Of a stretch of DNA of 64,000 nucleotides, positions 20,626 through 41,110 are shown one piece after another (positions within the stretch are counted from its first letter, which is position 1; every line of letters begins with the position of its first letter). Under the pieces are notes generated by a model, which saw nothing but the letters and a program-made list of their open reading frames with translations, did no database searches and was not told where the DNA came from. Source of the stretch: Candidatus Acetothermia bacterium (GTDB lineage: Bacteria > Bipolaricaulota > Bipolaricaulia > RBG-16-55-9 > JANLFV01); contig JANLFV010000002.1 in assembly GCA_024653345.1 (NCBI GenBank), positions 62,001-126,000 of the forward strand. The letters run 5' to 3'. The translations under genes were made by a program, and so were the position numbers.

Positions 20626-21699
20626 CTAATGCTCCTCCCGTGCGTTCTTGACCTTGATCATCTCCGCGAGGATGCTCACGGCGATCTCGCCCGGCTCCTT
20701 CCCCCCGATCGGCAGCCCGATCGGGGTGTGCACCCCGCTCAAGCGCGCTCTCGCTATGCCCTCCTCTCCTAGCTGCCGGAAGATCTCGTCCCTCTTCTTG
20801 GGACTTCCGATCATCCCCAGGTAGGCCGGGGCCCGGCCAGAGTCCAGGATCTGGCGGAGGACCACTGCGTCGACCTGATGCGAGTGGGTCACGATAGCAA
20901 CGAACGATCGCTCGTCCGGCAGGGGCAGATTTCCCTGAAAGTCCCGGCCGACCAGATGGACGCGGTCGACGAGCGGCCTGAGCGGCTCGAGCAGGTCCTC
21001 CCGCTCGTCCGCCACCTCGACCTCGAAGAGCTCCGTGGCCGCGGCCAGCTTGACAAGCTTCGCCCCGACATGCCCCGCGCCGAAGATCAGAAGCCGCGGC
21101 GGGCGCTCGACGACCTCTAGAAACGCCCAGAAGCGCCCCTCGCCCTGGGGATCGGCCAGTTCCTTGAGGGCCGCTCTCTTCCCCGAGGGCAGAAGCGCAG
21201 CCGCCTCCGCGCTGATCCTCTCCACTATCTGCGGAGAAGGGCCTACGCCGCAACACGAATCCGGCTCACCAGCGGCCGACAGGATGAGCCTCGCCTCACG
21301 GGCTGAGCTGGGGCCGGCCCGGCTGAAGAGGTGGGCGATGACGATTGGCCCTCCCTCGCGGAGCAACTCCTGAACCCGAGCGCAGAACTGCCGCATCTCC
21401 GGGCCGCGCACGGCCTCATAGAACACGCTCACCTCGCCGCCGCAATGCATTCCCAGGTCCCGCAGGGCATAATCCTTGAGCACAGGAGGAGTTTCGGGGA
21501 AGAGCCTGAGCGCCTCCTGGACAACATGCATCTCCAGCGCTCCTCCGCCGACGGTGAACTCCGTGGTTCCGTCAGGATGGACAATCAGCTTCGCCCCGGC
21601 CCGCTGCGGCGCCGGCCCGCGGGCCTCCGCCAGATGGGCGAGGACAAGGGCGCGCCCCTCCTCCAGCAGCTCAGCCACGCGGTCGTAGAACGATCTCAT
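20626..21699 (-). CDS. xdhC: XdhC/CoxI family protein (molybdenum cofactor maturation)
   Basis: XdhC-type proteins bind molybdenum cofactor and help its sulfuration and insertion into xanthine dehydrogenase-like enzymes. The 357-residue protein has two XdhC/CoxI segments at the N-terminus: residues about 1-75 with GGGALE, and a diverged second copy at about 100-165 with SCCGVGPSP. A C-terminal Rossmann domain follows (about 190-340; LLIFGAGHVGAKLVKLA and VAIVTHSHQVD, GMIGSPKKRDEI). ATG 21699 is chosen because it overlaps the mocA stop (ATGA); a much longer open frame upstream is a shadow of mocA. The duplicated, unequal N-terminal domain is slightly unusual. Confidence 0.85.
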   Translation of the reverse strand: MRSFYDRVAELLEEGRALVLAHLAEARGPAPQRAGAKLIVHPDGTTEFTVGGGALEMHVVQEALRLFPETPPVLKDYALRDLGMHCGGEVSVFYEAVRGPEMRQFCARVQELLREGGPIVIAHLFSRAGPSSAREARLILSAAGEPDSCCGVGPSPQIVERISAEAAALLPSGKRAALKELADPQGEGRFWAFLEVVERPPRLLIFGAGHVGAKLVKLAAATELFEVEVADEREDLLEPLRPLVDRVHLVGRDFQGNLPLPDERSFVAIVTHSHQVDAVVLRQILDSGRAPAYLGMIGSPKKRDEIFRQLGEEGIARARLSGVHTPIGLPIGGKEPGEIAVSILAEMIKVKNAREEH

Positions 21700-22304
21700 C
21701 TCCGCTCCAGTTCGAGCAGCCACGCGTAGTCCTCGGGCGTATCGAGGTCCAATTGCGTCGCCCCATCTCTCAGGGGCAGTTTGACTGCCTCGGCCCAGTG
21801 CCTCTTCACCACGCCCCAGCCGCTCTGGTCGCCTGTGAGCGTGGCCAGCTCTCGCAGCAGTTCCCGGGAGAAGGCGACCGGATGGCCCTTCTCGCCATTG
21901 TAGAGTGGGAAGCAGAGCGGCGCACCGGTCCTCAAGAGCCCCTCGGCTACCGAGTCGATCAACTGGGCGGTCATGAGCGGCATGTCGCCCTGGAGGAAGA
22001 GGGCCCCGCGCGCTTCCTTTGGCAGCGCCTCGATGGCTGTCTTCACCGAGGAGGCTCGACCGGAGGGCCAATCTGGGTTCTCGACCACTCTGATCCTGGG
22101 GTGAGAGGCTAACTCGGCCAGGGCCGCTAAGATCTTCTCCCCCTCGTGGCCGATCACCAGGATGATCGGCTCGAGTCGCGATCCCAAGGCCGCGCGGACC
22201 ACATGATAGACCACCGCCCGGCCACGAAAGGGGAGGAGGAGCTTGTTCCTCCCTCGGAAACGACTCCCCTCGCCCGCGGCGAGGATCACGCCAGCTATGG
22301 CCAT
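21696..22304 (-). CDS. mocA: Molybdenum cofactor nucleotidyltransferase (MocA/MobA-like)
   Basis: A 202-residue nucleotidyltransferase. The N-terminal signature VILAAGEGSRFRGRNKLLLPF (split: VILAAGEGSRF then KLLLPF) is the NTP-binding loop of MobA/MocA enzymes. LFLQGDMPLMTAQLID carries the metal-binding Asp, and HPVAFSRELL the pterin-side loop. With xdhC and yqeB downstream, cytidylylation of molybdopterin for a xanthine dehydrogenase-like enzyme is the natural role. It is first in the operon, behind a good promoter. Confidence 0.83.
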   Translation of the reverse strand: MAIAGVILAAGEGSRFRGRNKLLLPFRGRAVVYHVVRAALGSRLEPIILVIGHEGEKILAALAELASHPRIRVVENPDWPSGRASSVKTAIEALPKEARGALFLQGDMPLMTAQLIDSVAEGLLRTGAPLCFPLYNGEKGHPVAFSRELLRELATLTGDQSGWGVVKRHWAEAVKLPLRDGATQLDLDTPEDYAWLLELERR

Positions 22305-22330
22305 TTGCTCGGAATCCTTGCCCTGGCCGA

Positions 22331-22359
22331 ATCCTAGCCGAGTTTCCTCCCCAAGTCAA
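22331..22359 (-). promoter_or_regulatory. Promoter of the mocA-xdhC-yqeB operon
   Basis: On the minus strand TTGACT (22354-22359) and TAGGAT (22331-22336) are separated by 17 bp, about 27 bp upstream of the mocA ATG. Confidence 0.75.
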
Positions 22360-22400
22360 GGATTCTGCGCTCCGGCTCACAACACCGCTTGAAGCGGGTC

Positions 22401-23375
22401 TCACTCGCTGTCGCCGAGCTCGGCGCTCCCTTCGCGGGGCTGTGCCATTCCCGTGATGGCTAGAACGATCCTGTAGAGTGCTTCCTCGGGCTCGGCCTCG
22501 CCCCGCTTGAGCCGGGCATCCTTGCGGTGCAAGAGGTAGATTAGGTCGATCAACTCCTCCTCGCGGAAGCTCTTCACCTGGCTCAGGCGGCGCTTGACGA
22601 GCCAGGGGTATTGCCCCGTCTCGGCGGTGATCTCCTGGAGGCTGCGGCCCGCCTCGGCCAGGGACTTCACGGCCAGGAGCGCCCGGATCTCCCCGGCGAT
22701 CATGAAGAAGACTCTGTTCGGGTCCTCACCCTCTGCAAGGAGCTGCCGGAGGCTCACCAGCGCCTGAGGCCGGCGCGAGCCGAGCTCCTCGAGGAAGGCA
22801 AAGATGCCCGCCCCTCGCCCACCGAAGATCAAGCCCTTGAGGTCCTCGACCCCCAGCGGGCCCTCGTGCGGATAGAGCGAGAGCTTCTCGATCTCGTTCG
22901 CCAGATGGTGCAGCTCGGGCTCGCTCATCTCCAAGAGGCAGCGGAAGGCCTCGGCTGTCAGCTCGACCCCTTGCTCGCGGAGGAGGTCCCGGACCAGCTT
23001 CGGCAGGCTCCGCCGGTCCGGCTTGGGGAAGTCCTCAGCCTCGCCCCGCTCGGCAATCAAGTGGACTAACTTGCTCCGCTGATCCAGCTTCTCCGCGCTC
23101 AGCAGGAGGAAGAACCCCGCGGGCAGGCCCCGCTCGAGTAACTGGACGAGTCCCGCGCCCTCGGGGAGCTTCTCGACGCGACGGATGAGGATCAACTTCC
23201 CCGGGGCGAAGAGCGAGGGGGTGAAGAGCTCCTCGAGCAGCTTCTCGTTGTCGAGCCCTTCGGCGTCGAGGTGGACCTCGTCCAGTTGGCCATGGGCCTT
23301 AATCTCGGCGATCTTCCGCTGGAGCGCCCGCTCGCGCAGGAAATCGTCGCCGGTGAAGAGGTAAACTTGCTTCAC
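22401..23375 (-). CDS. holA: DNA polymerase III delta subunit HolA
   Basis: Delta subunit of the clamp loader, which opens the sliding clamp. The 324-residue product begins KQVYLFTGDDFLRERALQRKI, the typical HolA start. It also has the LDQRSKLVHLI segment, LIFGGRGAGIFAFLEELG and VKSFREEELIDLIYLLHRKDARLKRGEAEPEEAL (in pieces), all seen in HolA. It starts at GTG overlapping the upstream HD gene stop by 4 bp (GTGA). Confidence 0.88.
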   Translation of the reverse strand: MKQVYLFTGDDFLRERALQRKIAEIKAHGQLDEVHLDAEGLDNEKLLEELFTPSLFAPGKLILIRRVEKLPEGAGLVQLLERGLPAGFFLLLSAEKLDQRSKLVHLIAERGEAEDFPKPDRRSLPKLVRDLLREQGVELTAEAFRCLLEMSEPELHHLANEIEKLSLYPHEGPLGVEDLKGLIFGGRGAGIFAFLEELGSRRPQALVSLRQLLAEGEDPNRVFFMIAGEIRALLAVKSLAEAGRSLQEITAETGQYPWLVKRRLSQVKSFREEELIDLIYLLHRKDARLKRGEAEPEEALYRIVLAITGMAQPREGSAELGDSE

Positions 23376-25932: not shown

Positions 25933-27618
25933 ATGAAGGAGCTGACCCTGAAGAGCGAACGGGCGCGCTGGGAGAAGGAGGTCCTCCAGCCCTTTTTAGA
26001 GGAGCACGGCGAGCGGAAGGGGCGGTTCATCACCGTCTCGGGCGAGGAGATCAAGCGGCTCTATACCCCCGAAGATGTCCAGGGCCTGGACTACGACCGC
26101 GACCTCGGCTACCCCGGGGAATACCCCTTCACCCGCGGGGTCTACCCCACGATGTATCGCGGCCGGCTGTGGACGATGCGCCAGTTCTCCGGCTACGGCG
26201 GGGCGGAGGAGACCAACCGCCGGTTCAAGTATCTCCTGAAGGAGGGCGAGACCGGGCTCTCTACGGCCTTCGATATGCCGACGCTGATGGGCTACGACCC
26301 CGACCATCCTTTGGCCGACGGCGAGGTGGGCGTGGAAGGGGTCTCGGTCGCCACCTTAAGGGACTTCGAGATCCTCTTCGACGGGATCCCCTTGGATAGG
26401 GTGAGCACCTCCTTCACCATCAACCCCACGGCCGCGGTCATCTATGCCATGTATATCGCGATCGCGGACCAGCAGGGTGTCCCGAGGACGGAGCTCCGCG
26501 GGACGATCCAGAACGATATGCTCAAGGAATTCATCGCCCAGAAGGAGTGGGTGATCCCCCCAAAGCCGGCGATCGACCTGATCGTCGATATCTTCGAGTT
26601 CGGGATCAAGGAGACCCCGAAGTTCAATCTGATTAGCATTTCGGGCTACCACATCCGCGAGGCCGGGGCCACGGCCGTCCAAGAATTGGCTTTTACACTG
26701 GCCGACGGGTTCGCCTATGTCGAGGCCGGGCTGGAGCGGGGGCTCGATCTGGATAGCTTCGCGCCCCAGTTAAGCTTCTTCTTCAACTCCCACAACTCCT
26801 TCTTCGAGGAGATCGCCAAGTTCAGAGCGGCGAGGCGGATCTGGGCGAGGAGGATGCGCGAGCACTACGGCGCGAAGCGCCCGGAGTCCTGGCGGTTGCG
26901 GTTCCACACCCAGACGGCCGGCTGCACCCTCACCGAGCAGCAGCCCTTGAATAACATCATCCGGGTCGCGCTCCAGGCCCTCGCGGCCGTCCTCGGCGGG
27001 ACCCAGAGCCTCCATACCAACTCCTACGATGAGGCCCTAGCTTTGCCGTCGGAGGAGGCGGTCCGGATCGCCCTCCGGACCCAGCAGATCATCGCCCATG
27101 AGAGCGGGGTGGCGGACACGATCGACCCCCTGGCGGGGAGCTACTTCGTGGAGAGCCTGACGGACGAGATGGAACGGGAGGCACTGGACTACATCGGCCG
27201 GATCGAGCGGATGGGCGAGGGCTCGCTCCTCAAGGGGGTCCTACGCGGGATCGAGGAGGGCTTCTTCCAGCGGGAGATCGCGCGCGCGGCCTACGAATAC
27301 CAGAAGCGGGTCGACTCCGGGGAGCAGGTGATCGTCGGGGTCAACAAATATGTCATCGAGGAGGACCATAAGCCCCGTATCCTGAGGGTCGACCCCGAGG
27401 TCCAGCGGCGGCAGATCGCCCGGCTGAACCAGGTGAAGCAAGAGCGGGATCAGGCCAAGGTGAAGGCCGCGCTCGCGGGGCTAAGGCGGGCCTGCGAGCG
27501 GGGCGAGAACCGGATGCCGCACATCCTCGAGGCTGTGAAGGCCCAAGCTAGCCTGCAGGAGATCATGGACACCCTGCGCGAGGTCTATGGCCAGTATCGG
27601 GAGCCAGCGATGTTCTAG
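25933..27618 (+). CDS. Acyl-CoA mutase large subunit, isobutyryl-CoA mutase-like pocket
   Basis: A B12-dependent carbon-skeleton mutase of the methylmalonyl-CoA mutase family, 561 residues, with only the substrate-binding TIM barrel; the B12 domain is the next gene. Family motifs are [61 protein letters not shown], and [13 protein letters not shown]. Positions that set substrate choice are Phe85 (Tyr89 in Propionibacterium methylmalonyl-CoA mutase), Ala112 and Gln203 (Arg207 there). Phe plus Gln is the isobutyryl-CoA mutase pattern, and Ala112 argues against 2-hydroxyisobutyryl-CoA mutase. An AAGGAGGGG site precedes the ATG. No MeaB chaperone or epimerase gene is adjacent. Confidence 0.88.
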
Positions 27619-30110: not shown

Positions 30111-30869
30111 GTGGGTAGAGGGGAGCGTCTGACTCCCCGCGCTGATCCGCAGGAGTTAGCCCAGTTCCTTAGCTCCATCTTTGCGGGCCTAGGCCAGGCT
30201 GAATTGCGGGAGCTGCTGGACTCGACCCTCATGCTGAGCTATGGGGAAGGCGATCTGATTGTCCAGGAGGGCTCATACTTCTCGGGGATCTATATCGTCT
30301 ATCGTGGGCTAGTCCAGATCGGAAAATACTCTTCCACCGGGAAGCGGCGGGTCCTGCGCTTCTTGGCCCCCCGGGAGATGTTCGGCCTGGAGGCGCTGTT
30401 CATGCGCGAGCAGGAGATGAACATCCAGTATGCCAGGGCTCTGGTCGACTCCGACGTCTTGTTCATCAAGGAGCGGGGATTCTGCGATTTTCTGAAGAGC
30501 CATCCGGCGGCGCTCTTCACGCTATGTCAGTGGTTCGCGCGGGAGGTGGCGATGCTAGAGTTCAAGCTCACGCGAGATGCCACTGAAGGGAGCTTGCAGA
30601 ACTTCGCCCTGCTCCTGGCAGCTCTCAAAGACAAATACGGGTCGAGGACGGCCTCGGGAATACAGATCAAGCTGGAGCTCCCGCGCCAACTGCTCGCGGA
30701 GCTCCTCGGGGTCTCCGTCGAGACGATAATCCGCCTGATGAAGAACTTGAAGGACAGGGGCATTATCACAGCGGAGAACAGTGAGATAACCATAACTGAC
30801 GAGGACAAGCTGACCTCTATCGGCCGGACGACAGCCTTCTACCTGGAGATACTGAAGGAGACCCTCTGA
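30111..30869 (+). CDS. Crp/Fnr family transcription regulator
   Basis: A 252-residue regulator with an N-terminal cyclic-nucleotide-binding-type beta-roll (about 25-140: GDLIVQEGSYFSGIYIVYRG, RFLAPREMFGLEALF), a dimer helix and a C-terminal winged helix (about 185-225: LPRQLLAELLGVSVETIIRL then MKNLKDRGII). No FNR-type cysteine cluster is present, and the cAMP-pocket residues are not clearly conserved, so the ligand is unknown. It starts at GTG with a GGAGG somewhat far upstream. It converges on a paralogue and lies near glutamate and Nuo-like genes, its likely targets. Confidence 0.88.
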   Translation: MGRGERLTPRADPQELAQFLSSIFAGLGQAELRELLDSTLMLSYGEGDLIVQEGSYFSGIYIVYRGLVQIGKYSSTGKRRVLRFLAPREMFGLEALFMREQEMNIQYARALVDSDVLFIKERGFCDFLKSHPAALFTLCQWFAREVAMLEFKLTRDATEGSLQNFALLLAALKDKYGSRTASGIQIKLELPRQLLAELLGVSVETIIRLMKNLKDRGIITAENSEITITDEDKLTSIGRTTAFYLEILKETL

Positions 30870-30878
30870 GCTAGGCTA

Positions 30879-31634
30879 TTACAGGACTTGAGGCACGAGG
30901 GGATCGAGCCCGGCCAGCTCGGCTAGCCCCTCAGGATCGAGGACTACCAGTTTCCGCCCCTCTGCAGCGACCAATCCCTGCTCTTTCAGCTCCCTCAGGG
31001 CACGGATGAGCGATTCAGTGGAGACACCGAGCAGATCAGCGAGCACGCTCCGCTTGAGCTCCAGCTCAACAGACCACGCCCGACCACCGTTGGCGCGGAA
31101 TTTGCGCGCTAGAGCCAACAGCACGAGCGCAAGGTTCCTCGTGGGAGTCTCGCTCCCATCCCAGGCCAATCTAATCTCGAGCGCGAGCAGCTCGCGGGCT
31201 AGCCAGTTGCAGAGCCTGATGGCTACATCGGGGCGGGCCTCAAGCAAGTCGAGAAAGGTGTCCCGATCGATGAAGCGCACCCGCATATCTGTGAGGGCGC
31301 GGGCGTAGCCAAAATGCGGCCAATCGCCGTGCAACAGCAGAGTATCGGCTCCCAGTAAGTCCTGGGGGCCGACAATCTTGATGATCCTCTCCCTGGACCC
31401 GTCGCCGGAGCGTCGCCCGTAGGCCGCCAGTCCTTCGGTGATCACATGGATGCCAGCAGTGATGGCTCCCTGCTGAAAGAGCAGGTCGCCCGCCTGATAC
31501 TGAACGGATATCGATGCATCGTTGAGCCAGGCCAGCTCATCTTCCCCAAGGCCGCCGAAGATTGATTGAGGGAGGCCCTCAGCCACCCCGGGCTGCTCTA
31601 GTGTCTCGAGTGCAACTGGTGTGGTCTCTAACAT
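30879..31634 (-). CDS. Crp/Fnr family transcription regulator, paralogue
   Basis: A 251-residue protein with the same layout as the convergent neighbour: beta-roll domain (YQAGDLLFQQGAITAGIHVI, IVGPQDLLGADTLLL), dimer helix (RLCNWLARELLALEIRL) and winged helix (LKRSVLADLLGVSTESLIRA then LRELKEQGLV). The recognition helices differ moderately between the two, so their sites may be related but not identical. Only nine bases separate the two stops. The upstream region contains tandem 21-bp repeats shared with gdh. Confidence 0.87.
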   Translation of the reverse strand: MLETTPVALETLEQPGVAEGLPQSIFGGLGEDELAWLNDASISVQYQAGDLLFQQGAITAGIHVITEGLAAYGRRSGDGSRERIIKIVGPQDLLGADTLLLHGDWPHFGYARALTDMRVRFIDRDTFLDLLEARPDVAIRLCNWLARELLALEIRLAWDGSETPTRNLALVLLALARKFRANGGRAWSVELELKRSVLADLLGVSTESLIRALRELKEQGLVAAEGRKLVVLDPEGLAELAGLDPLVPQVL

Positions 31635-31737: not shown

Positions 31738-31779
31738 ATTGCCAGTCATTTGGCGAGGATTGCCACTCAATTGGGCGGG
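31738..31779. repeat. Two tandem 21-bp repeats, candidate operator
   Basis: 31738-31758 and 31759-31779 match at 16 of 21 positions and abut exactly. Each begins ATTGCCA and contains CCA-N6-TGG at the same offset. The 21-bp period places both on the same DNA face. They lie between the divergent Crp/Fnr gene and the first glutamate dehydrogenase gene. Confidence 0.5.
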
Positions 31780-31894
31780 CCACAGCTGGCAGAGACGACA
31801 GCGGCGGGCACCACAAAATGCGCTCCCTTTGCTGCGGTCGATCCTGGAGCCATGTTTCTGCTCGTCCTTAGAATCGCAGCGGAGGTGGTCGCAA

Positions 31895-33214
31895 TTGATC
31901 AAGATGAGAGACATTGCTGGAGCTGCCGTCGCTGAGGCCATACCCAGGCAGCGCGAATTAGGCACCAATCCCTATGAGATGGTCCTGGCCCAGTTAGATG
32001 GCGTCGGGAAGGAGCTCGATCTGGACCGCGGCCTGCTCGAGATCCTCAAGCGGCCGGAGCGCGTGGTCGAGGTCTCCGTCCCGGTGGTGATGGATGACGG
32101 CCGGATCGAGGTGTTCACCGGATACAGGGTGCAGCACAACAGCGCTCGCGGCCCCTACAAGGGGGGAATCAGATATCACCCCGATGTCACCCTCGATGAA
32201 GTGAAAGCCCTCGCAGCCTGGATGACCTGGAAGTGCGCCGTGGTCAATATCCCCTACGGCGGCGGGAAGGGCGGGATCAAGTGCGACCCGACCCAGATGT
32301 CTGAGGGGGAGCTCCAGAGGATGACGCGGCGATATGTCACGATGCTCCTCCCACTCCTCGGGCCGGAGAAGGACATCCCGGCACCGGATGTGAACACCAA
32401 CGCCACGATCATGGACTGGATCATGGATACGGCCAGCATCTTCAGCGGGCATTATCTCCCGGGGATTGTCACGGGGAAGTCGGTCGAGCTGGGAGGAGCC
32501 CTGGGGAGGCGCGAAGCGACCGGCCGAGGCGTGACGATCATCACCAAGGAGGTCCTGAAGCGGCTCGGCATGAGCCTTCAGGAAACGACCGTGGCTATTC
32601 AAGGCTACGGTAACGTCGGCTCTGTCAGCGCGACCTTGCTGGCCCAGGAGGGTTGCCGGATCGTCGGCGTGAGCGATATCTCCGGCGGATTCTACAACCC
32701 AAACGGCTTGGATATCCCGGATATCAATCGGTATGTCCGCACATCGCCGGGGCATCTCCTGCGAGGATACACCGCCCGCGGAGCCGCGCCGATCTCCAAC
32801 GAAGAGCTATTGACGCTACAGGCGGATGTGCTGATCCCCGCCGCTATGGAATGCCAGATCACCGAGGAGAACGCCCCTGAAGTTCGGGCCCGAGTCATCG
32901 TCGAGGGGGCCAACGGGCCGACGACTCCCGAGGCTGATCTAATCCTCGAAGAGAGGGGCATCTACGTTGTGCCGGACATCCTCGCCAATGCCGGCGGGGT
33001 GGTCGGCTCCTACTTCGAGTGGGTGCAGAGCCTGCAGGCCTTCCCTTGGACCGAGGAGGAGACGAACGCCAGACTCGCGCGGATCATGAGCCAGAGCTTT
33101 GCCGAGGTCTGGGAGTGCGCACGCGAGCGGTCAGTCACCCTCAGAAAAGCTGCCCTGATGCTGGCTGTCAATCGCGTGGCGGAAGCCATTCGGAGGCGCG
33201 GGATCTTCCCGTAA
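31895..33214 (+). CDS. gdhA: Glutamate dehydrogenase 1 (Glu/Leu/Phe/Val family)
   Basis: Interconverts glutamate and 2-oxoglutarate plus ammonia. About 439 residues. The substrate-binding motif is PYKGGIRYHP, the catalytic region IPYGGGKGGIKCDP carries the lysine, and the NAD(P) fold is AIQGYGNVGS followed by DISGGFYN. VEGANGPTTPEAD is also typical. TTG at 31895 is chosen because GGAGGTGG lies 6 bp upstream; ATG 31904 is an alternative with poor spacing. It is about half identical by eye to the second copy at 39848. The residue after the dinucleotide beta-2 strand is Asp in both copies, which favours NAD over NADP. Confidence 0.93.
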   Translation: MIKMRDIAGAAVAEAIPRQRELGTNPYEMVLAQLDGVGKELDLDRGLLEILKRPERVVEVSVPVVMDDGRIEVFTGYRVQHNSARGPYKGGIRYHPDVTLDEVKALAAWMTWKCAVVNIPYGGGKGGIKCDPTQMSEGELQRMTRRYVTMLLPLLGPEKDIPAPDVNTNATIMDWIMDTASIFSGHYLPGIVTGKSVELGGALGRREATGRGVTIITKEVLKRLGMSLQETTVAIQGYGNVGSVSATLLAQEGCRIVGVSDISGGFYNPNGLDIPDINRYVRTSPGHLLRGYTARGAAPISNEELLTLQADVLIPAAMECQITEENAPEVRARVIVEGANGPTTPEADLILEERGIYVVPDILANAGGVVGSYFEWVQSLQAFPWTEEETNARLARIMSQSFAEVWECARERSVTLRKAALMLAVNRVAEAIRRRGIFP

Positions 33215-33885: not shown

Positions 33886-34356
33886 GTGGAGAAGGTTGAT
33901 GAGATAATCGCAAGATACAACGGGGATAGATCAGCTCTGATCTCTATCCTGCAGGATATCCAGGCCGAATACAACTGGCTGCCTCGCGAGGTCCTCACCG
34001 AAGTCGCTAAGAAAATGGGCCTGTCACTAACTGAGCTATGCGGCACCGTCACCTTCTACAGATCCTTCCGCCTGAAGCCGCGGGGCAAGCACTTGATCAC
34101 GGTCTGCATGGGGACAGCCTGCCATGTCCGCGGGGCGCCCAGGGTGCTGGAAGAGTTGGAGAAGAAGCTCAAGACTAGTGCGGGCGCAACGACGCCGGAT
34201 AGGCTCTTCACGCTCGAGACAGTCAGGTGCCTCGGGGCCTGCGCTCTCGGCCCGATCGTCGTGCTGGGCGATGAGTATCATGGCCAGATGACTAAGGCGA
34301 AGGTTGATGCGCTCCTGTCAGAGGTGCGCCAGAGCGAGAGGGGTGCCAGCCAGTGA
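33886..34356 (+). CDS. NuoE-like [2Fe-2S] subunit
   Basis: A 156-residue thioredoxin-fold iron-sulfur subunit of NADH dehydrogenase/hydrogenase diaphorase modules. The cluster ligands are CMGTAC and CLGAC, giving the usual C-x4-C and C-x3-C pattern. The N-terminal helical part (ALISILQDIQAEYNWLPREV, GTVTFYRSF) is standard NuoE/HoxE. It starts at GTG 33886 and its stop overlaps the next gene by 4 bp. It passes electrons between the NuoF flavin and the partner clusters. Confidence 0.9.
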   Translation: MEKVDEIIARYNGDRSALISILQDIQAEYNWLPREVLTEVAKKMGLSLTELCGTVTFYRSFRLKPRGKHLITVCMGTACHVRGAPRVLEELEKKLKTSAGATTPDRLFTLETVRCLGACALGPIVVLGDEYHGQMTKAKVDALLSEVRQSERGASQ

Positions 34357-37300
34357 GGAGGATCGCCGGTCGCCGGGACTTAGAGAAGCTAAGAATCCAG
34401 CTGCTCAAGCAGACGCCTTCCAGCCGACCCTGCATCACGATCTCTTCAGGCACCTGCGGGCGGGCCCGCGGCTCGGAGAAGGTGGGGCAAGCCTTCCGGG
34501 AAGCGCTCAGAAAGCATGGCCTCGATGGCAAGGTTACGATAAGGGTCTCGGGCTGCCACGGCTTCTGCCAAGCAGAGCCCCATGTGCTAGTCCATCCCGA
34601 GGGAATCTTCTACCAAAGGCTCCGCCCGGAGGATGCTGAGGAGATCGTCGTGCAGACCCTTCTCCACGGGAGAATCATCGACCGCCTGCTGTATGTTGAC
34701 CCTGCCACTGGGAAGAAATCTGTTTATGAGGGGGAAATCCCCTTCTACAAGAGGCAGCAGCGGAACCTCCTGGCAAGCAATGCCCTGCTCGACCCCACGA
34801 GCATTGATGACTACATTGCCATCGGCGGCTATACAGCCCTAGCTAAGGCCCTCACCACCATGAGGCCAGAGGAAGTAATCGAGGAGATCAAGCGCTCCGG
34901 CCTGCGCGGGAGGGGCGGGGCCGGCTTCCCCACGGGGATCAAGTGGGAGCTCTGCCGCCGCTCGCCCGGGGACCAGAAGTATGTCATCTGCAACGCCGAT
35001 GAGGGCGACCCCGGAGCCTACATGGATAGGAGCCTCCTCGAGGGCAATCCGCACTCGGTGATCGAGGGGATGATCATCGGCGCTTACGCCATCGGCGCGT
35101 CCTACGGATTCATCTATGTCCGCGCGGAATACCCGCTGGCGGTGAAGCATGTGGGTATTGCTCTTGAGCAAGCAAGGGAATACGGTCTTCTCGGAGAGGA
35201 TATCCTGGCCTCGGGGTTTGATTTCGACCTCAAGGTTGTTCGCGGCGCTGGAGCATTTGTCTGCGGCGAGGAGACGGCCTTGATGGCCTCGATCGAGGGG
35301 AGGAAGGGCGAGCCGCGCCAGCGCCCGCCCTTCCCCGTTCAGAAGGGCCTCTGGGGTAAGCCGACGAATATCAACAATGTCGAGACCTGGGCCAATGTCC
35401 CGCTGATCATCAATCGTGGAGCTGAGTGGTATGCCAGCATCGGGACGGAGAGGAGCAAGGGGACGAAGATCTTCTCCCTCGTGGGGAAGATCAACAACAC
35501 CGGCCTGGTCGAGGTCCCGATGGGGATCACTTTGAAGGAGATCATCTACGACATCGGCGGGGGGATCCCTAAGGGGAAGAAGTTCAAGGCCGTCCAGACC
35601 GGCGGGCCATCAGGAGGCTGCATCCCCGCTGAGCTGCTCGACCTCCCGGTCGATTATGAGAAGTTGGCCGAGGCCGGCTCGATGATGGGCTCCGGCGGGA
35701 TGGTTGTGATGGATGAGGACACCTGCATGGTCGATGTGGCCAGATACTTCCTCGACTTCTTAAGGGATGAGTCCTGCGGGAAGTGCCTCTCCTGCCGCGA
35801 GGGGACCCAGAGGATGTTCGAGATCCTCACTGCCATCACCGAGGGGCGGGGGAAGGAGGGGGACCTCGAGCTTCTCGAGGAGTTGGCCCTCGTGGTCAAG
35901 GAGACCTCGATGTGCGGACTCGGCCAGACCGCCCCTAATCCGGTCCTCTCGACGCTCCGCCACTTCCGTGACGAGTATGAGGCCCATATCAAATACAAGC
36001 GCTGCCCGGCGGCGGTCTGTAAGGAGCTGATCTCCTCGCCCTGCCAGCACATCTGCCCGATCGGGACGGAGGTCCCGGTCTATGTCGCCCTGATCGCTCA
36101 GGGGAGGTTCGCCGAGGCCCTAGAAGTAATTAGGAAGGACAACCCCCTCCCCTCGGTCTGCGGGCGGGTCTGCCACCATCCCTGCGAGGCCAAGTGCCGT
36201 GCGGGCGAGGGGGGCGAGCCGATCGCCATCCGGGCGCTCAAGCGGTTTGCCACCGACTATGGGCTGCGGGAGGGGCTCGAGCCCCAGCCGAGCCGCGGCC
36301 CCGGGAGGGAGGAGAAGGTGGCCGTGATCGGCTCCGGGCCGGCGGGCCTGAGCTGCGCCGCCGAGCTGGCCAAGCTCGGTTATCCCGTGACCGTGTTCGA
36401 GGCCCTTCCCGTGGCGGGCGGGATGCTCGCGGTCGGGATCCCGGAATATCGGCTGCCTAAGAGGATCTTGCAGGCCGACATTAGGGCGATCGAGAGCCTC
36501 GGCGTGGAGATCAAGACGAACACCGCTTTGGGGAGGGAGATCACGCTCGACGGGCTCTTCGCTCAGGGATATAAGGCCATCTTCATCGCCATCGGGGCCC
36601 ACAAGAGCCTGAAGCTCGGCCTCCCCGGCGAGGAGGCCGAAGGGGTCCTCCCGGCGATGGACTTCCTGACCGCCGTTAACCTCGGGAAGAAGGTCCAGCT
36701 CGGCCCGCGGGTGGGGATCATCGGCGGGGGAAATGCCGCCGTCGACGCCGCGCGGGTCGCCCGCCGCCTCCTGAGAGATGGCGAGGTTACCATCATTTAT
36801 CGCCGGACCAGGGCAGAGATGCCGGCCTACCCCGAGGAGGTGGAGGCCGCCCTGGAGGAGGGGATCGCGATAGAGTTCCTCGCCGCGCCGGTGGAGATCC
36901 TCAGCTCGAACGGGAAGCTCGAGGGCGTGAAGCTCGTCCGCATGGAGTTGGGCGAGGTGGACGAGACCGGGCGGCGGAGGCCGATCCCGATCCCCGGCTC
37001 GGAGTTCACCCTCGAGCTCGACACCCTGATCGCCGCGATCGGCGAGGAGCCGGAGATCCCCTTCCAGGACGGGCAGGTTCGTGTCTCCAAGTGGAAGACG
37101 ATCGAGGTCGATCCGGAGACCTTTGCGACAGGCCGGCCAGGGGTCTTCGCTGGCGGAGATGTGGTGAGCGGGCCGGGGACAGTGATCGAGGCGATCGCGG
37201 CCGGGAAGGTCGCGGCCCAATCGATCGACAGTTATCTCCGCGGCTTGCCCCTCACGCGGGAGTATCGCTTGACCCGCCCCTCGGTCTACATCCCGCCGGT

Positions 37301-37514
37301 CGAGCTCTCCGAGGAGGAAGTAATCCAGGCCCGACGGCCGGCGATGCCGCTTCTCCGGCCAGAGGAGCGGGCCAGCAACTTTAAGGAGGTCGAGCTCGGC
37401 CTCACCGAGGAGCAAGCGATTAAGGAAGCACGAAGGTGCCTCCGCTGCGACCTCGAGACGAAGGAAGGGAAGGCCGCCATCTCCGGGAGGGCCGTCGAGG
37501 CCGGGAGGGCTTAA
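34353..37514 (+). CDS. NuoF-GltD fusion: NADH-oxidising flavoprotein joined to a glutamate-synthase-beta-like module
   Basis: A 1053-residue fusion. Residues 25-100 are a thioredoxin-like ferredoxin domain with Cys27, Cys35, Cys68 and Cys72; the usual first ligand before GTC is Ser. Residues 150-545 are NuoF: FMN/NADH motifs GRGGAGFPTGIKW and NADEGDPGAYMDR, a SLBB region and a [4Fe-4S] site CGKCLSC with Cys521. From about 560 comes a GltD/NfnB-like part: cluster region CQHICP (564-569) and CGRVCHHPCEAKC (603-615), FAD motif GSGPAGLSCAA (660-670), NAD(P) motif GIIGGGNAAVDAAR and YRRTRAEMPA, as in NADPH-using GltD proteins. The fusion joins an NADH site, an NADPH-type site and several clusters, an arrangement suited to transhydrogenation or electron bifurcation. 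Confidence 0.88.
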   Translation: MRRIAGRRDLEKLRIQLLKQTPSSRPCITISSGTCGRARGSEKVGQAFREALRKHGLDGKVTIRVSGCHGFCQAEPHVLVHPEGIFYQRLRPEDAEEIVVQTLLHGRIIDRLLYVDPATGKKSVYEGEIPFYKRQQRNLLASNALLDPTSIDDYIAIGGYTALAKALTTMRPEEVIEEIKRSGLRGRGGAGFPTGIKWELCRRSPGDQKYVICNADEGDPGAYMDRSLLEGNPHSVIEGMIIGAYAIGASYGFIYVRAEYPLAVKHVGIALEQAREYGLLGEDILASGFDFDLKVVRGAGAFVCGEETALMASIEGRKGEPRQRPPFPVQKGLWGKPTNINNVETWANVPLIINRGAEWYASIGTERSKGTKIFSLVGKINNTGLVEVPMGITLKEIIYDIGGGIPKGKKFKAVQTGGPSGGCIPAELLDLPVDYEKLAEAGSMMGSGGMVVMDEDTCMVDVARYFLDFLRDESCGKCLSCREGTQRMFEILTAITEGRGKEGDLELLEELALVVKETSMCGLGQTAPNPVLSTLRHFRDEYEAHIKYKRCPAAVCKELISSPCQHICPIGTEVPVYVALIAQGRFAEALEVIRKDNPLPSVCGRVCHHPCEAKCRAGEGGEPIAIRALKRFATDYGLREGLEPQPSRGPGREEKVAVIGSGPAGLSCAAELAKLGYPVTVFEALPVAGGMLAVGIPEYRLPKRILQADIRAIESLGVEIKTNTALGREITLDGLFAQGYKAIFIAIGAHKSLKLGLPGEEAEGVLPAMDFLTAVNLGKKVQLGPRVGIIGGGNAAVDAARVARRLLRDGEVTIIYRRTRAEMPAYPEEVEAALEEGIAIEFLAAPVEILSSNGKLEGVKLVRMELGEVDETGRRRPIPIPGSEFTLELDTLIAAIGEEPEIPFQDGQVRVSKWKTIEVDPETFATGRPGVFAGGDVVSGPGTVIEAIAAGKVAAQSIDSYLRGLPLTREYRLTRPSVYIPPVELSEEEVIQARRPAMPLLRPEERASNFKEVELGLTEEQAIKEARRCLRCDLETKEGKAAISGRAVEAGRA

Positions 37515-38242
37515 TGAATGGCATGATAACGCTGCGGATCAACGGATTGGATGTCCAGGTCGAGGAAGGGACGACCCTGCTCGAGGCCGCCCGATTCCTG
37601 GGGTTCAAGATCCCGACCCTCTGCTACCACGAGGGCTTGAGCCCTTATGGGGCCTGCCGCCTCTGCATCGTCGAGATCGGCGAGGGGAAGCGGGCCAGGC
37701 TCGTCTCCTCCTGCACTTATCCGGCGGAGGAAGGGCTAGTGGTCCGGACCCATTCCGAGAGGGTGATCCGGGCGCGGAAGATGCTGGTGGAACTGATGCT
37801 CTCGATCGCGCCGAACTCCAAGACCATCCAGGATCTGGCCTCCGAGCTGGGAGTGCAACAGGTGCGGTTTGAGGTGAGGAACGAGGAATGCATCCTCTGC
37901 GGCCTCTGTGTCCGGATGTGCGCCGAGCAGATGGACGCTCGGGCGATCGGGTTCGTCGGGCGGGGCCAGGAGCGGCGGATCACTACCCCGTTCGACATGA
38001 AGTCCGAAGCCTGCCGGACCTGTGGTGGCTGCATCTACATCTGCCCGGTCTGCCAGCTCCGCTGCCAGGGACCGGAGGCACCGAGCGCGGTCTGCGGCTC
38101 CTGCCTCCAGCTGGAGCCCACCTGTCTCGAGGCCTACGATGACCTAATGTGCTACATGGGCCCAGCCGGGGTCTGCGGGACCTGCATCAGGCCTGTTCCG
38201 GACGAGCTGCGAGAGCGCGAACGGACCAAGGTCAAGGTATAG
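37514..38242 (+). CDS. HoxU/NuoG-N-terminal-like iron-sulfur protein
   Basis: A 242-residue electron-transfer subunit. An N-terminal [2Fe-2S] ferredoxin domain has CYHEGLSPYGACRLC and a later Cys near residue 64. Two [4Fe-4S] motifs follow at about 128-180: CILCGLCVRMC and CRTCGGCIYICPVC. The C-terminal 60 residues add seven more cysteines (CQG, CGSC, C-L, C-Y, CGTC), unusual for HoxU. ATG 37514 overlaps the previous stop by one base (TAATG). It would link the NuoEF part to a partner, here probably the FMN protein encoded next. Confidence 0.85.
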   Translation: MNGMITLRINGLDVQVEEGTTLLEAARFLGFKIPTLCYHEGLSPYGACRLCIVEIGEGKRARLVSSCTYPAEEGLVVRTHSERVIRARKMLVELMLSIAPNSKTIQDLASELGVQQVRFEVRNEECILCGLCVRMCAEQMDARAIGFVGRGQERRITTPFDMKSEACRTCGGCIYICPVCQLRCQGPEAPSAVCGSCLQLEPTCLEAYDDLMCYMGPAGVCGTCIRPVPDELRERERTKVKV

Positions 38243-38273
38243 CCGGTTCTCAAAGAGAGGAGGAGAGATAAAG

Positions 38274-39851
38274 ATGTCGATCACTAGGCTGAACTCGAGC
38301 GCGGCCACGCTGAGCAAGAATCGGACTGACGGCTCGGTGACGCCGATCAGCGGGATGTGCGTCACTTGCGTTGATGGCTGCATCGGGATGTGCGAGATCG
38401 GGAAGTCGGCCTATCGCGGGAGCGAGGCGATCTACCCCCAGCCGTTCGGGATCATCACCACTGCCTCGGAGAAGGCCTATCCGCTGGACCTCTCTCACTT
38501 CAACATCATGGGGACGACCGTTGGGGCGCATGGGATCGAGGCGGACAGCGATGTGGCTATCTTCCCCAGTGTGCGATTGGAGAGGGAGATCGGGCGGGAG
38601 AAGAAGGTCAAATTGAAGCTCCCTTTGGCCGTCCTAGCCATGGGCTCGACGAATGTGGCCAGGAATAACTGGGAAGGGCTAGCCATCGGCGCGGCCTTGG
38701 CAGGGATCCCGGTCACCATCGGGGAGAACGTCGCCGGGATGGACCCGGAATCGAGGATTGTCAAGGGGAAGCTGGTCGATTCCCCAGAGCTGGCCCGCCG
38801 CGTCCGGCTATACAGGGACTGGCAGCGGGACGGCTACGGAGAGATCATCCTTCAGGCCAATGTGGAGGACACCCGCCTGGGGGCGCAGGAGTATGCTCTC
38901 AGCAAGCTGGGGGTGAGCGCAGTTGAGCTGAAGTGGGGCCAGGGGGCGAAGGACATCGGCGGCGAGGTGAAGATCAGGGACTTAAGGACGGCCCAGCTCC
39001 TTAAGAAGCGGGGCTACATCGTCCTTCCTGACCCCGAGGACCCCCGTGTGATCGCGGCCTTCGAGGCGGGGAGCTTCAAGGAGTTCGAGCGCCACTCGCG
39101 GGTGGGGATGGTCACCGAGGAGGGCTTCCTGGAAAGGGTGAAAGAGCTCCGCCAGGCCGGGGCGAAGTTCATCTCCTTGAAGACCGGGGCTTATCGCCCT
39201 GCAGACCTGGCTCGGGCGGTCAAGTTCGCCTCCGAAGGGAAGCTTGACCTGCTAGTGGCGGATGCGGCCGGCGGGGGGACCGGGATGAGCCCCTGGCGGA
39301 TGATGAACGAGTGGGGCGTCCCGGGCGTGGAGCTCTGGTCCCTCCTCTATCGCTATGCGGACAAGCTTGCCAAGCGCGGGGAGTATGTGCCGGATATCGC
39401 CATCGCTGGCGGCTTCATCTTGGAGGATCAGATCTTCAAGGGGCTGGCCCTCGGGGCTCCCTATTTCAAACTGATTGGGATGGCTCGTGGCCCGATGGCG
39501 GCGGCAATGGTCGGGAAGACGATCGGGCGGCGGATCGACCAGGGCGAAGTCCCTGTCTATGTCGCCCGCTTCGGCAGCACCAAGGAGGAGATCTTCGTCA
39601 CTGCAGCGGAACTGAAGCACGAACTCGGAGCTGACTTTGAGAGGGTTCCGACCGGGGCTCTGGGGCTCTACACCTATCTCCAGCGGCTCGCGCAGGGGCT
39701 GCGACAGTTGATGTGCGGTGCGCGGAAGTTCGCTTTGGAGTATATTACTCGTGACGACATCGCTGCCCTCACGAGAGAGGCGGCGGAGGTCAGCGGTGTT
39801 CCCTACATCACAGAGGTAGATGCGGCAGAGGTGGAGCGGATACTCGCATGA
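38274..39851 (+). CDS. FMN-binding glutamate synthase-like protein
   Basis: A 525-residue protein corresponding to the FMN synthase domain of glutamate synthase, without the glutaminase domain. Motifs are SVELKWGQGAKDIGGEVK (in part), FISLKTGAY, VADAAGGGTGMSPW and GLRQLMCGARKF. At the N-terminus CVTCVDGCIGMC (Cys29, 32, 36, 40) looks like a cluster site. Relatives include archaeal glutamate synthases and methylglutamate synthase MgsC, so the product could be glutamate or an N-substituted relative. A GAGGAGGAGAG ribosome site lies upstream. Context points to reduction via the NuoF-GltD protein. Confidence 0.85.
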   Translation: MSITRLNSSAATLSKNRTDGSVTPISGMCVTCVDGCIGMCEIGKSAYRGSEAIYPQPFGIITTASEKAYPLDLSHFNIMGTTVGAHGIEADSDVAIFPSVRLEREIGREKKVKLKLPLAVLAMGSTNVARNNWEGLAIGAALAGIPVTIGENVAGMDPESRIVKGKLVDSPELARRVRLYRDWQRDGYGEIILQANVEDTRLGAQEYALSKLGVSAVELKWGQGAKDIGGEVKIRDLRTAQLLKKRGYIVLPDPEDPRVIAAFEAGSFKEFERHSRVGMVTEEGFLERVKELRQAGAKFISLKTGAYRPADLARAVKFASEGKLDLLVADAAGGGTGMSPWRMMNEWGVPGVELWSLLYRYADKLAKRGEYVPDIAIAGGFILEDQIFKGLALGAPYFKLIGMARGPMAAAMVGKTIGRRIDQGEVPVYVARFGSTKEEIFVTAAELKHELGADFERVPTGALGLYTYLQRLAQGLRQLMCGARKFALEYITRDDIAALTREAAEVSGVPYITEVDAAEVERILA

Positions 39852-41110
39852 AGAGGCAAGAGGCGGCGAAGAAGTTCTCCCTCGCCGAGATGGCGAGGGA
39901 GCAGATCGCGCGAGCAGCCCGGGTGATGGAGCTGCCAGCTGACCTATTGACAATCCTCAACTGCCCCAAGCGGGTGTTGACCGTCTCCCTGCCCATCGAG
40001 CGAGACGATGGGAGCATCAGCTGCTTCACCGGCTTCCGCTGCCAATACAACAATATGCGCGGGCCGACCAAGGGCGGGGTCCGGATCCATCCCGATGTCA
40101 CTGAGGACGAGGTGATCGCGCTGGCAGCCTGGATGACCTGGAAGTGCGCCCTGGTCGATTTGCCTTACGGAGGCGCGAAGGGCGGGATCATCTGCGACCC
40201 TACGAAGCTCTCGGAGAAGGAGCTCGAGCGGCTGATCCGACGCTATACTACGGAGATCATGCCCCTCCTCGGCCCGCACCAGGACATCCCGGCCCCCGAT
40301 GTCTTCACCACCTCCAAAGAGATGGCCTGGATGATGGATACCTTCAGCATGTTCAAGGGGTATACCGAGCCGAGCGTCGTCACTGGGAAGCCCGAGGTCC
40401 TCGGTGGCTCGCCGATCCGGAAAGAGGCCACCGGGCGGGGTGTGGCCATTGTGACGCGGCAGCTTTTCGAGAAGCTCGGCTGGAGCCTGAAGGGAGCGAG
40501 AGCCGCCATCCAAGGCTTCGGGAATGTCGGCAGCTTTACGGCCCTCTTCCTCTCAGAGATGGGGGTGAAGATCGTCGCCGTCTCCGATGTCTATGGAGGT
40601 TATGCCGATGACCGGGGCTTCAAGATCCCAGAGCTCATGGCTTACGCGGAGAAACACGGCTCGCTGCGGGGCTGGCCGGGAGAGAGGATCGAACGGGACG
40701 AGATCCTCTACCAAGATGTCGATCTCCTCGTCCCAGCAGCTCTGGAGAATCAGTTACACGCGGGTAATGCGGCCAGAATAAGAGCCAGGGCCATCGTCGA
40801 GGGCGCTAACGGCCCGACAACGCCCGAAGCGGACGAGGTCCTGGAGAAGCGGGGCATCCATGTTGTCCCCGACATCTTAGCCAACTCCGGAGGGGTCATC
40901 GTCAGCCACCTCGAGTGGGTTCAAGCTCTGAGCGGGCTTCTTTGGGAGAGAGAGGAAACGATCAGCCGGCTCGAGCGCCGGCTGGTCCGGAGCTTCGATG
41001 CGGTCTGGAAGAAGGCGCAAGAGAAGAGGGTCTCCTTGCGAACGGCAGCCTACATCGTGGCCTTGGAAAGGGTCGTGGAGACCTATCGCTATCGGGGCCT
41101 CTTCCCCTGA
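39848..41110 (+). CDS. gdhA: Glutamate dehydrogenase 2 (Glu/Leu/Phe/Val family)
   Basis: A 420-residue dehydrogenase overlapping the glutamate-synthase-like gene by 4 bp (ATGA). Motifs mirror copy 1: GPTKGGVRIHP, LPYGGAKGGIICDP, AIQGFGNVGS, SDVYGGYAD and VEGANGPTTPEAD. The active-site loop has GGA rather than GGG before the catalytic Lys. Translational coupling to the synthase gene suggests they act together, for example producing glutamate and then 2-oxoglutarate plus NAD(P)H, or the reverse. Confidence 0.93.
   Translation: MKRQEAAKKFSLAEMAREQIARAARVMELPADLLTILNCPKRVLTVSLPIERDDGSISCFTGFRCQYNNMRGPTKGGVRIHPDVTEDEVIALAAWMTWKCALVDLPYGGAKGGIICDPTKLSEKELERLIRRYTTEIMPLLGPHQDIPAPDVFTTSKEMAWMMDTFSMFKGYTEPSVVTGKPEVLGGSPIRKEATGRGVAIVTRQLFEKLGWSLKGARAAIQGFGNVGSFTALFLSEMGVKIVAVSDVYGGYADDRGFKIPELMAYAEKHGSLRGWPGERIERDEILYQDVDLLVPAALENQLHAGNAARIRARAIVEGANGPTTPEADEVLEKRGIHVVPDILANSGGVIVSHLEWVQALSGLLWEREETISRLERRLVRSFDAVWKKAQEKRVSLRTAAYIVALERVVETYRYRGLFP

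Follow-up and report, generated by a model that had tools for sequence, protein, structure and literature searches.

A block of four genes, which encodes a BfuB-GltD fusion protein together with BfuC, BfuA and a glutamate synthase-like (GltS-like) protein, was analyzed in a 64-kb window of one contig of a Candidatus Acetothermia bacterium, the window being the whole stretch of DNA under study. The proteins of the window were scanned with Pfam and NCBIfam. All operon genes are located on the plus strand. The block starts with BfuC, a NuoE-like [2Fe-2S] thioredoxin-fold subunit (33886..34356; PF01257, 173 bits), whose gene overlaps by 4 bp with that of the fusion, a protein of 1053 residues (34353..37514) identified by Pfam, NCBIfam and PDB matches and modeled by AlphaFold2 with a predicted local distance difference test (pLDDT) score of 86. 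It continues with a BfuA/HoxU-like predicted electron wire of 242 residues (37514..38242; 9mqx_A, 139 bits over residues 5-186) and ends with the GltS-like protein, a flavin mononucleotide (FMN) (beta/alpha)8-barrel protein of 525 residues (38274..39851; PF01645, 50 bits). The BfuA open reading frame is listed from 37436; translation likely begins with the ATG at 37514, which shares one base with the TAA of the fusion gene. A gap of 31 bp containing a AGAGAGGAGGAGA stretch separates BfuA from the GltS-like gene. The block is flanked by two glutamate dehydrogenase (GDH) genes, and no other ELFV-type dehydrogenases were found in the genome (1.7 Mb, 92% complete). GDH2 (39848..41110; PF00208, 257 bits; PF02812, 192 bits) overlaps the GltS-like gene by 4 bp, and GDH1 (31739..33214; PF00208, 265 bits; PF02812, 204 bits) lies 671 bp upstream of the block on the same strand. 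The GDH1 reading frame is long, with a likely start near 31904, and scored 530 bits against the NCBIfam model NF040817 (GdhA_Arch), which is under the cut-off of that model. All five genes listed in a preliminary description of this DNA were verified at their positions, with the start of BfuA moved to 37514 and the second GDH added upstream. A promoter and terminator scan of the operon returned signals no more common than chance.

The N-terminal half of the fusion (residues 28-561; 34434..36035) matched BfuB of a bifurcating NiFe-hydrogenase (7t2r_B) with 791 bits, whereas the best-scoring complex I chain (2fug_1) reached 418 bits, and the PDB sequence comparison also placed HydB far above complex I NuoF. 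The predicted structure of the fusion agreed with those of BfuB and HydB (9mqx_B, Z 53.8; 7p8n_b, Z 51.4). This core consists of a reduced N-terminal thioredoxin domain, an FMN/NADH domain and the B1 and B2 cluster sites, and was matched by PF01512 and PF10589. The ligands of the B1 [4Fe-4S] cluster (C475, C478, C481 and C521) and of the B2 [2Fe-2S] cluster (C458, H545, C551 and C556) were the same in all 21 fusions compared, which represent many phyla. The B2 residues align with C438, H525, C531 and C536 of 7t2r_B, which are the ligands of the unusual B2 cluster of Bfu enzymes and include a histidine that is missing in non-bifurcating homologues (PMC9304861). A fifth position, that of Bfu C476, is occupied by Thr, Ser, Cys or Ala across the fusions and by Thr in the window protein. 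By its sequence, the pair first described as NuoEF is a bifurcase-type core related to BfuB/HydB and not an ordinary NuoEF, while the bifurcating signature attributed to it is upheld by the invariant B2 ligands.

The C-terminal part of the fusion (residues 562-1034; 36036..37454) is a GltD/NfnB-like module, for which the best sequence matches were 9bov_A (433 bits) and 9n5u_A (408 bits). In the model structure comparison it was closest to the Nfn-Bfu and Stn modules (9bov_A, Z 46.2; 8oh5_C, Z 45.8). The module occupies the place of the C-terminal ferredoxin domain of BfuB: PF14691 and PF07992 follow the NADH_4Fe-4S domain, and the first GltD ligand, C564, is located 8 residues past the B2 ligand C556. 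In the unfused GltS-linked relatives, a two-cluster ferredoxin domain is found at the same place, with its first cysteine about 13 residues past the same B2 ligand. The GltD module carries flavin adenine dinucleotide (FAD) and NADP(H) sites as well as two iron-sulfur (Fe-S) sites, which are completed by C1029 and C1032. Among the 21 fusions, cysteines 564, 568, 607, 611, 615, 1029 and 1032 were invariant and C603, R817 and R818 nearly so, and the NADPH-type YRR motif is retained. The domain matches and conserved ligands verified that an NADPH-type GltD module is fused to the NuoF-like part. As GltD replaces exactly the ferredoxin domain, the window version should use NADPH and not ferredoxin, which speaks against the initial suggestion that NADH, NADPH and perhaps ferredoxin meet in one complex.

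The two smaller subunits retain their cluster motifs. Cysteines 74, 79, 115 and 119 of BfuC were conserved in 69-70 of 70 GltS-linked relatives. In approximately 41 of the 70 (e.g. L073:5237-6085), BfuC is longer (280-340 residues) and contains eight added conserved cysteines that are not present in the window BfuC and perhaps form zinc or Fe-S sites. The [2Fe-2S] motif and both [4Fe-4S] motifs of BfuA were fully conserved in 77 sequences. Eight additional cysteines in a family-specific C-terminal tail (38051..38185; C180, C184, C194, C197, C204, C213, C221 and C224) were conserved in 70-76 sequences, and the best PDB match (9mqx_A) ends at residue 186, leaving residues 187-242 uncovered. This tail likely holds one or more further [4Fe-4S] clusters facing the GltS-like subunit. 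The short BfuA proteins of two loci without a GltS-like gene (L042 and L044) lack this tail, which is a natural candidate for the wire to the GltS-like protein.

The GltS-like protein itself matched the Pfam family Glu_synthase (PF01645) only weakly (50 bits, cut-off 20.4), and this family was the best Pfam match for all 41 relatives tested. Profile alignment with canonical glutamate synthase (GOGAT) FMN domains extended over 296 columns (E 3e-6) and revealed KxxQGAK and GGTGxSP stretches common to both. The model reached a pLDDT of 80 and matched FMN barrels at Z scores of about 25. Neither a glutaminase domain in any of the operon proteins (Pfam scan) nor a GXGXG domain in the GltS-like protein was detected, which agrees with its first description as an FMN glutamate synthase-like protein that lacks a glutaminase. 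The [3Fe-4S] cysteine triad that follows the FMN site of GOGAT was absent, and the triad region aligned without cysteines in the profile alignment with GOGAT. The only conserved cysteines of the family are C29, C32, C36 and C40, which form a C29-x2-C32-x3-C36-x3-C40 motif (38358..38393) conserved in at least 97% of 89 sequences and probably bind a [4Fe-4S] cluster. NCBIfam contained no model specific for the protein, and no other PF01645 proteins were found in the window genome. More distant GltS-like genes with 59-60% identity were observed in three genomes (L003 and L049 in G032, L005 and L050 in G038, L004 in G023). Bfu neighbors are absent at L049 and L050, L004 lies at the end of a short contig and L003 is located beside tryptophan synthase genes. 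A second GltS-like gene with 50-61% identity was present near the block in four loci (L064:4129-5712, L078:2114-3718, L062:5015-6604 and L126:10270-11859), and sits between IclR-type regulators in L064 and L078.

A scan of a genome collection yielded at least 532 relatives, and the gene block was analyzed in the best 80 loci among them, which show 67-76% identity. These loci come from both Bacteria and Archaea and represent about twenty groups at the phylum level. Wherever the contig reaches, the order BfuC-BfuB-BfuA-GltS is kept, with BfuA (79/79), BfuB (74/74) and BfuC (70/70) all located upstream of GltS; BfuA of L095 and L112 was counted from a tblastn hit, as the open reading frame is extended there. 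The recurrence of the gene block is more than chance, and the GltS-like protein was verified as a constant neighbor of the NuoEF-type genes. In one short contig (L053:661-2746), a GDH gene directly precedes BfuA with no BfuB in between, which is a rearrangement or an assembly fault. A histidine kinase and an NtrC-type regulator were found upstream of the block in many loci. About nine loci (e.g. L057:1285-4356) contain a response regulator plus PPDK_N protein of approximately 1000 residues, which adjoins a GDH gene near the block in several cases.

On a tree of BfuB sequences, the GltS-linked proteins form one side of a branch with a single change of association, while fused and unfused BfuB proteins interleave and require 15 arm switches, at least eight of which are forced by well-supported branches. 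Many branches of this quick tree are weak, and the interleaving could be due in part to recombination. That one catalytic partner is conserved while the electron arm is repeatedly exchanged is the strongest argument for NADPH in the role of ferredoxin. The BfuB-GltD fusion is modular, as it was also found in related genomes with FdhA-like (molybdopterin formate dehydrogenase-like) A subunits (L040 and L045-L047), with an FeFe-hydrogenase A subunit (L041) and with short BfuA and no GltS (L042 and L044). The first two groups are candidate NADPH-linked versions of formate dehydrogenase-like and FeFe-hydrogenase enzymes. The finding that would have refuted the preliminary description, a fusion that accompanies hydrogenases or formate dehydrogenases and never the FMN protein, was not made, as the fusion occurs with all of them.

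The proposed proximity to glutamate metabolism was supported by the gene neighborhoods. In 15 of 50 carrier genomes, a GDH gene lay no more than 11 kb away from the GltS-like gene, where 0.5 were expected (approximately 30-fold; Poisson p about 1e-17; 75 ELFV-dehydrogenase genes, positions compared by hand). A glutamine synthetase (GlnA) is encoded directly after the block in one locus (L077), and the window genome contains two glutamine synthetases elsewhere. A canonical GOGAT domain is lacking in 38 of the 50 carrier genomes; such domains are rare in the phylum of the window organism in any case.

Gene order, domain make-up, cluster ligands, the domain exchange and the link to GDH can be read directly from these data, and we infer in addition the formation of a complex, the coupling of two nucleotides, glutamate as the product and a reductive direction. 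The four central genes may thus encode one soluble Bfu-like complex that couples NADH plus ferredoxin or NADPH to a glutamate synthase-type reaction, a tentative reading whose chances are put slightly below even. In such a complex, NADH would reduce the FMN of BfuB. Relatives that possess the canonical ferredoxin domain would have ferredoxin as the second electron partner; in the window organism, electrons from NADPH would pass through the FAD of GltD to its two Fe-S clusters beside the B2 gate. The pooled electrons would then be transferred via BfuA and its cysteine-rich tail to the GltS-like protein, with its N-terminal Fe-S cluster and its FMN as acceptors. This protein would convert 2-oxoglutarate and ammonia (as 2-iminoglutarate) to glutamate without involvement of a glutaminase domain. 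The two GDHs would serve as separate conventional routes to glutamate. The 2-oxoglutarate/glutamate couple has a potential of about -120 mV, and NADH and NADPH lie much lower. As the glutamate couple lies above both, the reductive direction would be the only favorable one. The more specific proposal, a widespread class of electron-confurcating enzymes in which NADH and a second donor (ferredoxin, or NADPH via the swapped domain) drive glutamate formation from 2-oxoglutarate by reductive amination with free ammonia, is possible and is put forward with clear doubt.

Several observations weigh against a coupled glutamate-forming complex. Both donors lie well below the glutamate couple, so coupling is not needed energetically and its benefit would have to lie in drive when ammonia is low or in redox balance. 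The N-terminal B5 [2Fe-2S] site of the fusion retains three of four cysteines (C35, C68 and C72), of which C68 and C72 are invariant and C35 is not. Some GltS-like genes stand without Bfu neighbors and therefore must use another electron donor. The GltS-like profile had no meaningful match among PDB sequences and is remote from proven glutamate synthases, which makes the substrate of this protein the weakest link. Its fold matched FMN alpha-hydroxyacid oxidases and type 2 isopentenyl diphosphate isomerase as well as it matched the glutamate synthase 1ofd. Finally, 297 genomes of one class comprised 32 carriers, defined by at least 68% identity, and 265 non-carriers; a canonical GOGAT domain was found in 20 of the former and 151 of the latter (Fisher p 0.58, counted by hand). 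As the domain is similarly frequent in both groups, GltS-Bfu does not simply replace GOGAT, and a role as a GOGAT substitute was rejected.

The remote sequence relation, the equally good fold matches and the lack of association between carriage and GOGAT absence leave room for a coupled Bfu-type enzyme that acts on another substrate, such as a different amino acid, a 2-hydroxy acid or a cofactor. Coupling would make more sense energetically if the potential of this substrate were between those of NADH and ferredoxin. However, Glu_synthase was the best family match throughout (41/41), the QGAK and GGTGxSP stretches are retained and the neighborhood is strong in GDH with one GlnA, so that this alternative, while a serious one, is considered rather unlikely. 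Somewhat less credit is given to a real but uncoupled complex, in which BfuBC and GltD would be independent inlets of a glutamate synthase that takes NADH or NADPH. Given the potential of the glutamate couple, either donor suffices by itself, and in classical GOGAT the GltD does no more than let in electrons from NADPH. Yet the B2 ligands, which are lacking in non-bifurcating homologues, are invariant in the fusions, the full ferredoxin arm is kept by the unfused relatives and the Wor-Bfu enzyme requires both partners simultaneously (PMC9304861). The reversibility of Bfu enzymes (PMC9304861) and the two flanking GDHs could point to the opposite direction, in which glutamate would be oxidized in amino acid fermentation with electrons delivered to NAD+ and to NADP+ or ferredoxin. 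This is improbable, because glutamate is a weaker reductant than every proposed acceptor, which bifurcation cannot rescue, and NAD(P)+-linked glutamate oxidation is already performed by GDH. Even though BfuB and GltD resemble parts of the Stn/Nfn-Bfu transhydrogenase (PMC10482914), a block that is mainly an NADH:NADPH (or NADH:ferredoxin) transhydrogenase, in which the GltS-like protein would act as sensor or regulator, is given very little weight, as the FMN barrel and Fe-S motif of this protein are conserved and the protein is the constant element of a system whose NADPH arm comes and goes.

If the proposed coupled complex exists, the Bfu family would gain a large branch whose third substrate is biosynthetic. 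Its ferredoxin arm would be an exchangeable plug, as the GltS-linked core would have been fitted many times with a ferredoxin or an NADPH domain, which would provide a natural experiment on electron gating through the B2 cluster of Bfu enzymes. The complex would also be a candidate for making or balancing glutamate in many uncultured anaerobes of both prokaryotic domains. A confurcating reaction would give anaerobes a strongly driven, ATP-free and glutamine-free route of nitrogen assimilation that is distinct from GDH and from glutamine synthetase-GOGAT. The exchange of the ferredoxin arm for an NADPH arm suggests an unexpected way to power or balance nitrogen assimilation in anaerobes.

Outside the operon, the region just upstream of GDH1 (30111-31634) encodes two Crp/Fnr-type regulators identified by Pfam, which lie end to end and on opposite strands. 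A methylmalonyl-CoA mutase large subunit and an XdhC/CoxI-family protein are encoded at 25933-27618 and 20626-22404, respectively.

Among the closest known systems are the HydABC-like enzymes of the Bfu family (Schut et al. 2022, PMC9304861). Shared features are the BfuB FMN/NADH core with B1 and B2 ligands including the B2 histidine, a BfuC with the C1 [2Fe-2S] site, a BfuA with one [2Fe-2S] and two [4Fe-4S] clusters and a co-encoded third-substrate subunit. In contrast, BfuB ends in a B3/B4 ferredoxin domain (IPR017896) that docks ferredoxin, while the window fusion carries GltD there and its B5 site is reduced. In the strict sense the window protein falls outside the Bfu family, as it lacks the B3/B4 domain; its unfused GltS-linked sisters possess it. 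A text match found glutamate synthase unmentioned in the Bfu paper (PMC9304861), and a GltS-like partner is not among the third substrates listed there. The same domain replacement as in the window fusion, with DPD_II and an FAD/NAD(P) domain in place of B3/B4, was reported for the Sub-type I BfuB of Hydrogenedentota FeFe-hydrogenases (Zheng and Huang 2024, PMC11406978), which is partnered by an FeFe-hydrogenase BfuA and not by a short BfuA and a GltS-like protein. StnABC and Nfn-Bfu (PMC7483475, PMC10482914; PDB 8OH5, 9BOV and 9N5U) share a homologous BfuBC core with the window system, and their GltD modules are the closest among solved structures. There, however, GltD is part of the A subunit (StnC) together with NuoG-like domains and BfuB keeps its ferredoxin domain, whereas in the window GltD is fused to BfuB and BfuA is short (242 residues). 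GOGAT (PDB 1OFD) resembles the window system in its FMN barrel, which is related (PF01645), and in having a GltD module that handles NADPH. Compared with GOGAT, the window system is devoid of the glutaminase, the GXGXG domain and the [3Fe-4S] triad, and adds the N-terminal four-cysteine motif and an NADH-handling bifurcase core. NfnAB has a similar GltD/NfnB-like module (5jca_L, Z 37.6), and the operon differs from it by having no NfnA-like partner. The arrangement is less unusual than first thought, since the GltS-Bfu block occurs in hundreds of genomes and BfuB-GltD was reported in 2024. The notion of an undescribed system does not extend to the BfuB-GltD architecture and holds for the GltS partner, as no publication linking a glutamate synthase-like subunit to a Bfu core was found in the open-access literature searched. 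The predicted complex is widespread and apparently undescribed: the Bfu core and BfuB-GltD are already known, and what is new is a GltS-like catalytic partner with an exchanged arm in a system that would work like a Bfu enzyme.

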